Shown: one piece after another, positions 155 to 11,366 of the stretch
How positions within the stretch are numbered: the stretch's first letter is position 1
Layout of the letters: every line of letters begins with the position of its first letter
DNA from: Bacteroidota bacterium
GTDB lineage: Bacteria > Bacteroidota > Bacteroidia > J057 > JAJTIE01
Reading direction: 5' to 3'
Assembly (NCBI GenBank): GCA_019638695.1
Contig: JAHBTG010000014.1
Coordinates: 1-49,950, forward strand
Length of the DNA stretch: 49,950 nt
Translations under genes and position numbers: made by a program
The notes under the pieces: model-generated
Seen by the model: only the letters and a program-made list of their open reading frames with translations
Told to the model about the DNA's origin: nothing
Database searches by the model: none

Positions 155-155
155 G

Positions 156-228
156 TGGGCCTGGTAGGGATCGAACCTACGACCAATTGATTATGAGTCA
201 ACTGCGCTAACCCCTGCGCTACAGGCCC
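156..228 (-). tRNA. tRNA with CAT anticodon (elongator Met or Ile2)
   Basis: On the minus strand a 73-nt cloverleaf can be read. The acceptor arm is GGGCCTG paired with CAGGCCC, the anticodon stem-loop is TTGACTCATAATCAA with anticodon CAT, and the T arm contains GGTTCGATCC. The discriminator base is A and no CCA is encoded. A CAT anticodon fits either elongator methionine or the lysidine-modified minor isoleucine tRNA. The GGTCG variable loop resembles tRNA-Ile2, but I cannot separate the two by eye. Confidence 0.92.
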
Positions 229-332: not shown

Positions 333-1616
333 CTATTGCCGCACTATCCGCAGGTGCTGTGGCTGTTTGCCGGGCGCTTGTGCCTCCAGCAGGTATACAC
401 CGGCGGGCAACTGTGCCAGGGAGAGACGGGTCTCCGTGCTGTGGAGCACCACTTTGCCGGTGGCGTCCCGCAGGGTTAGGGTTGCAGGTACCGGGCTGTG
501 TATGGTGATGAGGTCCGTGGTGGGGTTGGGCCATACCCGCAGGTTCCAGGACTGTGCGGCCAGCGGGTGGCGGTCTACAGTGCCGGTGGGCGCCGGTTCA
601 AAGCGCATGACGCGGGCGCTGATGCCTACGGTACGAAGCTGGCTGCTCTCGCTGCCGTCCCACAGGAACAGGCTGTCGGGATTGGTAAAATCGGAATCGC
701 TGAAGAAGGTGATGTCTTCATAGCGGTGCGCCGCGTACAGGTTCAGGGTGTTGATCGCAGCGGGGGCCTGCGCTTTTTCAAAGACTACCGGGTTGTCCAC
801 GGTGCCGCTGGCAATGTCATAGCTGCGGATACGCTCTGAGCGGAAGGTGCTGGTATTGACTTCTCCAAACCATATCTTGTCGTCCACCGGCAGGAAAATG
901 CCATAGGTGTCTATATACGTGGTATCGCTGCGCAGTATGGTGTGGGTAGCGGTGTCCAGTTTGCTCACGATCAGTCCCAGCCCGGTGTAGTCTATGCTTT
1001 GTACATAGAGATGCTCGTCTATCAGCGCCATGGCATTGGGGTTGATGGGGGTGGTGACGGTAGCCAGCGTGTCTTCCGCCAGCAGGTCTATGACTACTAC
1101 CTGGTTGTTATCGCCCAGGAAACCGGGCAGACTCACCCAGGCGCGGTTTCCGGCAATCACAATGGCTTCTGCTTCTGCGGGGAGCTTGTCATCTCCCAGG
1201 CTCCAGAGCTCGGCATAGTTGTTAGCAGGGTCCAGCACCCGCACCCGCTTGGCAGACTGGTAGGAAGTGACCACCAGTTGGTTGTTCCACAGGGCCAGCT
1301 TGCGTGCGCCCAGGTTCTTGAGGGTATCCAGCACCTGTTTGGTGGCGGTGTCTATACGGACGATGCTGCCGTTGGCAGGTGCGCCGCCGCCTACGGCATA
1401 TAGCACCCCGTTGTGAATGAGCAGGTCATTGCCGCCGCCGTCCATGGCGGTCACCTGGGTGTAGGTGTTGCCGGGATACTGCACATAACCTATTGCGCCG
1501 CTGGCGCCGAACGGTCCTTCGTTGAGCACCCAGAGCTTGCCTGCAGGTACCTGGGCAAAGGCGCATTCGCAGAGGCTGATCGCGAGCCCTGTGAACAGAA
1601 TGAGTTTGGAAAACAT
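333..1616 (-). CDS. Secreted beta-propeller protein with T9SS type A sorting domain, behind a cobalamin riboswitch (BtuG-like candidate)
   Basis: The protein of about 427 residues begins MFSKLILFTGLAISL, a signal peptide ending near CAFAQ. This start was chosen because the longer open frame runs back through the riboswitch. Residues about 20-345 contain recurring blade-like segments, such as GKLWVLNEGPFG, NGVLYAVGGG and VRVLDPANN, typical of YncE/DUF5074 propellers. The last 70 or so residues (VWPNPTTDLITI to LRIVRQ) are a T9SS type A C-terminal sorting domain. In Bacteroides, BtuG is a surface propeller lipoprotein that binds vitamin B12. The riboswitch upstream makes a B12 or cobamide capture role plausible, but here export would be by T9SS instead of a lipid anchor. 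That function is inferred. The gene appears monocistronic, followed by a same-strand tRNA. Confidence 0.8.
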   Translation of the reverse strand: MFSKLILFTGLAISLCECAFAQVPAGKLWVLNEGPFGASGAIGYVQYPGNTYTQVTAMDGGGNDLLIHNGVLYAVGGGAPANGSIVRIDTATKQVLDTLKNLGARKLALWNNQLVVTSYQSAKRVRVLDPANNYAELWSLGDDKLPAEAEAIVIAGNRAWVSLPGFLGDNNQVVVIDLLAEDTLATVTTPINPNAMALIDEHLYVQSIDYTGLGLIVSKLDTATHTILRSDTTYIDTYGIFLPVDDKIWFGEVNTSTFRSERIRSYDIASGTVDNPVVFEKAQAPAAINTLNLYAAHRYEDITFFSDSDFTNPDSLFLWDGSESSQLRTVGISARVMRFEPAPTGTVDRHPLAAQSWNLRVWPNPTTDLITIHSPVPATLTLRDATGKVVLHSTETRLSLAQLPAGVYLLEAQAPGKQPQHLRIVRQ

Positions 1617-1777
1617 GGGAATAGAATGGGAAAAAGTGAAACCATGCGGCCTCTGCGGACGGCTGCCGCCCTCATCACCATAGTTTCCTGCTTTGCCATA
1701 CGTTTCCTTACGGAGAAGGAATATTCCGGCAAAAAGTAAAACCACAGCCTGTTGGCGCGCAGGCGCGTTCTGTAATA

Positions 1778-1970
1778 CAGGGCAGGTCTCCTGGCTGGCC
1801 CCCATACAAGCCGCCTTCCCATGTTGCAGCGTATGCACCACAGTGGCTATGACTTGCCTGATAGCAGGGCTTCACAGTTGCGCGACAGCCTCCGATTTGC
1901 ACGGAGTTCCCTTTTCACCTCATACCGGTTCATACCTGTATGAGACACCTTGTATGCCAGTTACCGAAAA
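1778..1970 (-). promoter_or_regulatory. Cobalamin (B12) riboswitch
   Basis: On the minus strand the cobalamin-riboswitch landmarks occur in the right order: AAGGTG near the 5' end, AAAAGGGAA, then the B12-box region GCTGTCGCGCAACTGTGA (about 1873-1889), AGCCACTG, GGGAAGGCGG, and finally CCAGGAGACCTGCC (1781-1795). It ends about 160 nt before the start codon at 1616. That stretch holds a short GC hairpin followed by TTTTACTTTTT near 1730-1765, which could be the expression platform. The class normally represses B12 uptake or synthesis genes when adenosylcobalamin is plentiful. The outer boundaries are approximate. Confidence 0.92.
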
Positions 1971-9565: not shown

Positions 9566-11366
9566 ATGTATTTATTCCGTCAGTTATGGCCTCACTTGCG
9601 CAAGTATCGCTGGATTTTGCTGCTGGGGGGCGCTGTTTATCATCATCTCCAATGTATTTGCCATTTACCCTGCCCAGGTGGTGCGCGAGAGTTTTGACCT
9701 GGTGGCAGACTACATCCGGCGGTACAATGCCACTGCAGACCCTGCCGAGCAGGCCGGTATTCGCACAGAAGGACTATGGCTGGCGCTCAAATATGGCGGA
9801 CTGGTGTTGCTGCTGGCCATCCTGCGGGGGCTCTTCCTGTTTTTCATGCGGCAAACGGTGATCGTGGTGTCCCGCAGGGTGGAGTATGACCAGAAGAAAG
9901 AGTTATTTGAGAAATACCAGAGCTACAGCCTGCGCCTGCTGCGCAGCCAGCGTACGGGAGACCTGATGGCGCGTATCAATGAGGACGTCAGCAATGTGCG
10001 CATGTTCACCGGTCCCGGCCTCATGTATACCTTCAATACCATCACCCTGTTTGTGATGATACTGGTCACCATGCTGGCCGTCAACCCCCTTCTTACGCTG
10101 TATGTCCTCCTGCCGCTGCCTTTGCTGGCCCTTACGATTTATATCGTACACAAGGTGATCATCCAGCGGACGAACGTGCAGCAGCAGCAGCTTTCGTTGC
10201 TCAGCAGCTATGCGCAGGAGGCATTTTCCGGCATCCGCGTGCTCAAGGCGTATGTGCGCGAGCAAAATGCGGCAGACCGGTTTGACAAAGAAAGCGGGGA
10301 ATACATGCGCCGGGCATTGCGGCTGGTGGCAGTGGATGCCCTGTTCTTTCCCATCATCATGCTGATGATAGGCGCCAGTATCGTGTTCACCATCTGGATA
10401 GGCGGGGAGCAGGTGATCGCCGGCAACCTTACGTATGGCAACATCGCCGAGTTCATTATCTATGTAAACCTGCTGATATGGCCCGTTACGGCACTGGGCT
10501 GGGTCACCAGCCTCAGCCAGCAGGCTGTGGCCAGCCAGCAGCGCATTGCGGAGATGCTGGCGCTGAAGAGCGAACTGCACTTCCCGGAAAAGGCGGATCC
10601 GCCTGCCCGTTATGACCTGGAGCTGGATAACCTGAGCCTGACCTTTGCCGATTCCGGGATACGGGCGCTGCAGGAGGTATCCGCCCGCCTGCCGGAGGGT
10701 AAAACCATCGGGATCGTGGGGGCTACCGGCAGTGGCAAGACCACGCTGGCCAACCTGATGGTGCGCTTTATGGACCCCGACAGCGGTACCGTGCGGCTGG
10801 GCGGCAGGGATATCCGCAGCTATACCGAAGCGCAGCTGCGCACCCTCTTCGGGTATGTGCAGCAGGATGTGCTCCTCTTTTCGGATACTGTGGCCAATAA
10901 CATTGCGTTTGCCCGTCCCGAAGCTACTGAAGAAGAGATTGCGGAGGCTGCCCGCTTTGCCGGCGTATACGAGGATATCATAGACTTTCCCCATGGGTTC
11001 CAGACGATGGTAGGGGAGCGGGGCGTTTCCCTCTCCGGCGGACAAAAACAGCGCATTAGTATTGCACGCGCCTGGCTGGCACGTCCTCGTATCTGTATCC
11101 TGGACGATGCTCTGTCTGCAGTAGATGCAGCCACAGAAGCCCATATTGTGGAACGGCTCAAAGACCCGTCTGCTTTTGGCGGCAGCATACCAACCCTGGT
11201 GCTGATCAGCCACCGTATCCGCACTGTGCAGCATGCCGATTTGATCCTGGTTATGGATGACGGGCAGATCACCCAGCAGGGTACGCATGAAGAGCTGATC
11301 GTCCAGGAAGACGGTTATTATGCCCGGCTTTATATGCGGCAGGAACTGGAAACCCAGGTGCTGTAG
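9566..11366 (+). CDS. ABC exporter half-transporter (fused permease and ATPase), frameshifted in the first membrane helix
   Basis: The reading frame from ATG 9566 gives MYLFRQLWPHLRKYRWILLL, the usual N terminus of this family. It then goes out of frame at a run of six G (9625-9630). The rest (ALFIIISNVFAIYPAQVV onward, intact from GTG 9678) lies in the frame that five or eight G would give. Downstream is a normal exporter: six-helix permease, Walker A GATGSGKTT, Q-loop YVQQDVLLFS, signature SLSGGQKQR, Walker B CILDDALS, and H-loop LISHRI. The length with correction would be about 600 residues. The substrate is unknown. Either the tract is a sequencing error, or the gene is slipped or phase-variable. 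The alternative start at GTG 9678 would lose the first helix. Confidence 0.8.

Follow-up and report, generated by a model that had tools for sequence, protein, structure and literature searches.

B12 is traded and contested across most microbial communities, with Bacteroidota among its major consumers. Capture of the vitamin at the cell surface is so far known only from lipoproteins of gut Bacteroides, for example BtuG, which sits on BtuB. Specifically, the BtuG proteins of these bacteria are lipoproteins encoded beside btuB (PMC6143338, PMC10404256). BtuG combines an export signal with Cys32, as expected of a lipoprotein, and it acts as a lid on BtuB. In BtuG2, the loop from Asn54 to Thr64 is reported to grip B12, Tyr316 narrows the pocket that holds the upper ligand, and the binding face is acidic (PMC10404256). 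BtuH and BtuJ (DUF4465) of Bacteroides are likewise accessory surface B12 binders from riboswitch-controlled loci, and both are lipoprotein-anchored (PMC8941943, PMC13398666); their folds, a globular domain and a jelly roll, respectively, are unrelated to a propeller. HmuY-type haemophores also capture a cofactor at the surface or as secreted proteins and feed a TonB-dependent receptor, and because both fold and ligand differ, the comparison is one of analogy only.

Here, we describe a BtuG-like beta-propeller that carries the sorting tail of a type IX secretion system (T9SS) cargo and whose gene lies behind a cobalamin riboswitch. Its closest known relatives are BtuG1, BtuG2, and BtuG3 of Bacteroides thetaiotaomicron (PDB 8blw, 8ptd, 8bmy, 8okv, 8p97, 8bai). 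With T9SS type A cargo (TIGR04183/PF18962), it shares a Sec signal peptide, a C-terminal sorting domain, and a T9SS core gene in the genome. We found no BtuG-like T9SS cargo under B12-riboswitch control in the open-access literature searched.

A propeller gene behind a cobalamin riboswitch

The window, meaning the whole stretch of DNA analyzed, comprises 49,950 nucleotides of one contig from a Bacteroidota genome assembly (2.9 Mb, 146 contigs, 96% complete). Its relevant features are collected in Table 1.

Table 1. Features of the propeller locus (coordinates refer to the window)
Feature	Position	Strand	Basis or remark
Cobalamin riboswitch aptamer, RF00174	1764..1967	minus	cmscan, 100.1 bits versus gathering score 31.5, E 6e-24 (window-wide)
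Terminator-like hairpin at the 3' edge of the aptamer, then T-rich run	1747..1764	minus	possible expression platform, weak
Second terminator-like hairpin, in the leader	1638..1653	minus	weak
Gene of the T9SS-tailed BtuG-like beta-propeller, 427 aa	333..1616	minus	ORF; fold and profile homology
Sec signal peptide, residues 1-21, AFA/Q cut	1554..1616	minus	by-eye sequence reading
Propeller domain, residues 25-343	588..1544	minus	first row of alignment A2; profile, model, hhalign
LNEG motif and next loop, residues 31-41	1494..1526	minus	equivalent to BtuG2 Asn54-Thr64, via alignment chain
Tyr294, nearly invariant in the family	735..737	minus	aligns with BtuG2 Tyr316
T9SS type A C-terminal sorting domain, residues 358-427	336..545	minus	PF18962 and TIGR04183
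tRNA-Met(CAT)	155..228	minus	about 105 nt downstream of the gene; marks the end of the unit, outside the system

A reading made earlier from the sequence alone had claimed a minus-strand B12 riboswitch, and the riboswitch is real. Specifically, the covariance-model scan proposed by that sequence-only reading returned a strong RF00174 score, well above the gathering score, and the match at 1764-1967 is full length, spanning model positions 1-189 of 189. The whole 2.9-Mb genome holds only two RF00174 matches, the other being on contig C70. The ATG start of the propeller gene lies 147 nt downstream of the riboswitch. Low intracellular cobalamin would be expected to turn the gene on. How the aptamer might act on expression was sought in the hairpins of the leader. 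Similar hairpins occur in 9 of 73 relatives, with 3.2 expected from shuffled sequences; because they are so rare among relatives, a role of the hairpin as expression platform is not established, and a transcription terminator as a conserved platform is unsupported.

The signal peptide and the search for a lipobox were judged by eye rather than with SignalP; on inspection, the signal peptide of the 427-aa protein contains no canonical lipobox. The Gln that follows the cleavage site agrees with the Bacteroidetes Q-rule, as set out in PMC5837995. At the other end of the protein, the proposed T9SS sorting tail exceeds both curated cut-offs (PF18962, 29.1 bits, cut-off 27; TIGR04183, 31.2 bits, cut-off 23). 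The description of the gene as standing alone also held: only the tRNA-Met gene lies behind it, its upstream neighbors, SSB-like and BioA-like by sequence reading only, are unrelated to the propeller, the local neighborhood contains no other B12 gene, and btuB is absent from the window.

Relationship of the propeller to BtuG

The propeller had been called YncE/DUF5074-like. That label is apt for fold and ancestry, as profile searches, Foldseek, and hhalign indicate, but no DUF5074 model fires. Specifically, the Pfam search gave no DUF5074 (PF16819) match for the 427-aa protein, and only 1 of 42 family members has such a match. Single-sequence searches by Pfam or phmmer likewise matched no BtuG chain, and profiles were required. 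A profile built from eight members of the family, searched against PDB sequences, finds BtuG1 (8blw_B) along the whole propeller at E 4.7e-8 and 8ptd/8ptf at 1.4e-7. When the T9SS-tailed family is aligned with seven BtuG-type lipoproteins by hhalign, the probability is 99.7% over 294 columns, with E 5e-27 for this one single comparison.

The structural comparison with BtuG led to the same relatives. The AlphaFold2 model of the protein (pLDDT 79.6, pTM 0.70) has a BtuG-like fold: in a Foldseek search of the PDB, 16 of the 17 top matches are BtuG or 3DSM, the BtuG structure of B. uniformis. TM scores on the target, that is, on the BtuG side, are 0.71-0.82 for propeller-only chains, and identity in the structural alignments is merely about 12-15%. 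The possibility that the likeness reflects generic propeller similarity is weakened because BtuG structures top the PDB ranking, with nearly all other PDB propellers below them, and because the hhalign alignment covers the whole propeller. In an unrooted tree, the lipoprotein and T9SS-tailed forms lie apart, and the lipoproteins form one clade with support 0.998.

Features of the BtuG2 binding site can be traced in part. BtuG2 numbering was anchored on Trp272, Tyr316, and Tyr335 in the alignment and in the text of PMC10404256. The LNEG loop and Tyr294 occupy positions equivalent to the gripping loop and to Tyr316, respectively, and the propeller has an acidic pI of 4.7. These features support a putative BtuG-like pocket, judged by alignment and composition. 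Neither Trp194 nor Trp272 of BtuG2 can be matched clearly to a residue here.

In sum of likeness, the protein and BtuG have in common the propeller fold, the NEG-loop motif, the equivalent of Tyr316, the acidic propeller, the B12 riboswitch, and an extracellular destination. Unlike BtuG, the protein lacks a lipobox, ends in a T9SS tail, is encoded by a lone gene, and is distant in sequence. Given a homologous propeller that lacks three usual marks of BtuG, namely the lipobox, the btuB neighbor, and the DUF5074 match, we class it as a BtuG-like variant exported by the T9SS.

Recurrence of the riboswitch-propeller pair

The arrangement is not unique to the source genome. In a set of 395 genomes from the class, a propeller of this family (E <= 1e-10) occurs in 87 and RF00174 in 344. 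Many of the propellers and riboswitches in those genomes lie side by side by their coordinates, and these regions were read. A scan of GTDB genomes based only on protein alignment revealed 57 related loci, mostly from environmental MAGs labeled Flavobacteriales, Crocinitomicaceae, Cryomorphaceae, Saprospiraceae, or plainly Bacteroidetes. A usable ORF exists at 54 of the 57 loci, and in 48 of them a B12 riboswitch lies at the start of the ORF on the same strand. One of the remaining loci lies at the end of a contig, and the other five have no riboswitch; thus, the pair is present at 48 of 53 judgeable loci. At one extreme, the riboswitch is located 87 nt within the called ORF, and at the other, it is 397 nt upstream of the start; the median distance is 112.5 nt. 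This tally was made with an nhmmer profile built from 18 RF00174 hits, and a re-check of propeller loci by cmscan agreed for 24 of 24 positives and 10 of 10 negatives. Because some named loci and numbered genomes come from identical MAGs, the counts of the two sets are kept apart.

By Pfam, 34 of 42 family members carry the T9SS tail, and several more look tailed on inspection. The pair of a B12 riboswitch and a T9SS-tailed propeller is widespread in little-studied Bacteroidota, at dozens of loci.

In most loci, the propeller stands alone behind the riboswitch, as in the window, and few propellers adjoin btuB. One relative (G012) has the order riboswitch, btuB, btuG lipoprotein, T9SS propeller, and its btuG lipoprotein matches BtuG by phmmer at E 2e-51. 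Apart from G012, the propellers that adjoin strong BtuB matches are the lipoprotein forms. Behind the propeller of a Flavobacteriales-type group come varying combinations of DUF6580, a PF01902 protein, and a PF01497 (BtuF-type) binding protein.

B12 and type IX secretion genes elsewhere in the genome

The genome encodes the T9SS core protein SprA (TIGR04189, 2142 bits), the gene on which the presence of a T9SS was judged. It also encodes MetH, methylmalonyl-CoA mutase, and IcmF, enzymes that use B12, so the vitamin would be useful to the owner of this genome. The best candidate for the receptor is a 643-aa TonB-dependent receptor on contig C101, whose top NCBIfam model is TIGR01779 (E 1.9e-17, a score under the equivalog cut-off of that model); judged by sequence, it is probably BtuB. 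A BtuG-type lipoprotein is encoded on contig C35 (phmmer 8p97_B, E 7e-29; DUF5074, E 3e-14), a BtuF-like protein on C57, and a DUF6580 protein on C59.

The T9SS-tailed propeller is thus not the only BtuG-like form in the genome. Because a classical BtuG-type lipoprotein is present as well, the propeller may supplement rather than replace BtuG. The probable BtuB and the lipoprotein BtuG are unlinked to the propeller gene, and cmscan finds no riboswitch in the regions of BtuB (C101), BtuG (C35), or DUF6580 (C59). For this reason, the T9SS-tailed propeller is the candidate for B12-switched capture in this genome, beside a lipoprotein BtuG that has no riboswitch.

Two further surface proteins of this genome deserve mention. 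The second riboswitch, on C70 (L037:9389-9597, plus strand, 104.4 bits), precedes a lone secreted protein (9702-11063, plus strand) that contains the sequence NLVPNPSFEDY, a weak CBM_4_9 match, and, by eye, a T9SS-like end. It has no relatives in PDB or NCBIfam, and its AlphaFold model, made without relatives, has a pLDDT of 39, from which no fold was inferred. This protein might be another B12-related surface protein, unrelated to the propeller. On C59 (L137:4720-12271), a T9SS-tailed, weakly HmuY-like protein is encoded beside genes for a TonB-dependent receptor and a Hmu-like ABC transporter, possibly another cofactor-capture protein exported via T9SS and not as a lipoprotein.

Proposed function and alternatives

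We consider it probable that the protein is a B12-repressed, BtuG-like, seven-bladed propeller that is exported by the T9SS, captures cobamides outside the cell, and supplies them to a BtuB-type receptor. Riboswitch, fold, homology, and recurrence all support T9SS-routed B12 capture, the function first suggested for the locus, with the qualification that they are drawn from sequence and model. The notion is that scarce intracellular cobalamin would free the riboswitch and switch the propeller gene on. Sec and signal peptidase I would take the product across the inner membrane, and the T9SS across the outer one, in place of the surface-lipoprotein route. At the surface, it would probably be anchored like usual T9SS type A cargo. 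There, judging from its relationship to BtuG and its predicted structure, the propeller would bind B12 or other cobamides and so raise the supply to the BtuB-type TonB-dependent receptor encoded elsewhere. Its final location at the surface and the handover to BtuB are presumed steps of this scheme. Counting against capture are that btuB is not adjacent and the probable BtuB has no riboswitch, that one genus has the propeller without RF00174, and that a divergent T9SS-tailed branch has no riboswitch nearby.

If the proposal is right, a T9SS-exported form in environmental Flavobacteriales-like, Crocinitomicaceae, Saprospiraceae, and related lineages would take B12 capture beyond the gut, would connect the T9SS to vitamin uptake, and would open the testable option of a diffusible B12 scavenger. 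It would also suggest a putative role for a large set of proteins in which family models recognize nothing but the T9SS tail. A bolder version strikes us as rather doubtful: non-gut Bacteroidota would possess a non-lipidated, T9SS-exported, B12-regulated scavenger that acts away from BtuB, possibly as a released "corrinophore" that is shared or contested. Were this scavenger to exist, B12-capturing propellers would come in two export forms, as lipoproteins and as T9SS cargo.

We judge it unlikely that the propeller is a B12-regulated surface protein that binds no cobamide itself, such as an adhesin, a protein that binds a B12-carrying partner, or one required only once B12-dependent metabolism fails. 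The nearest relatives by fold and by profile bind B12, the NEG loop and the position of Tyr316 are conserved, and the family is found in a btuB-btuG operon and together with the PF01497 binding protein. These points have to be set against the readiness with which propellers switch ligands, the low identity to BtuG, the loss of two pocket tryptophans of BtuG2, and the usual absence of btuB from the neighborhood.

Very unlikely, in our estimate, is a propeller that is no surface-anchored partner of BtuB at all but a diffusible, released B12 binder, either a scavenger or a shared "corrinophore". Part of T9SS cargo is released from the cell. The protein has no lipid anchor, its T9SS tail is cleavable, btuB is not adjacent, and the probable BtuB is outside riboswitch control. 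BtuG2 is able to work in trans, but a btuG2 mutant was not rescued by BtuG2-producing cells in co-culture (PMC6143338), and PMC9143113 describes type A cargo as covalently anchored to the surface.

The suggestion that riboswitch and propeller adjoin by chance, or that the riboswitch serves another gene, has in its favor that no further B12 gene lies nearby, but we regard it as having a practically negligible probability and reject it: the pair recurs in many families with gene order and strand unchanged, at the proportion of loci given above, though most genomes have just one or two RF00174 riboswitches, a number from which we estimate well under one chance pairing.

Variation among related loci

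Returning from the favored function, cobamide capture outside the cell, to the wider family, we note several departures from the common arrangement. One genus (G011, G019, G020) and a further genome (G007) keep the propeller, and RF00174 is absent genome-wide (L041, L042, L044, L047). In G019 and G007, a TonB-dependent receptor adjoins the propeller. The divergent branch of T9SS-tailed propellers that have no riboswitch nearby (L043, L045, L046, L048) includes a tandem duplicate at L045, and this branch may have a different ligand.

DUF6580 (PF20221), often together with PF01902, recurs by B12-riboswitch propellers (L095, L096, L098, L105, L110, L111, L115, L120, L151); at L115, it follows a btuB-btuG pair. 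No paper in the available open-access literature names this domain, which may be a transport component for B12 or a precursor.

Finally, six relatives of one genus (L093, L102, L106, L107, L109, L123) have a tRNA-Thr(CGT) gene immediately behind the propeller and in the same orientation, an arrangement that the tRNA-Met gene behind the propeller in the window echoes.
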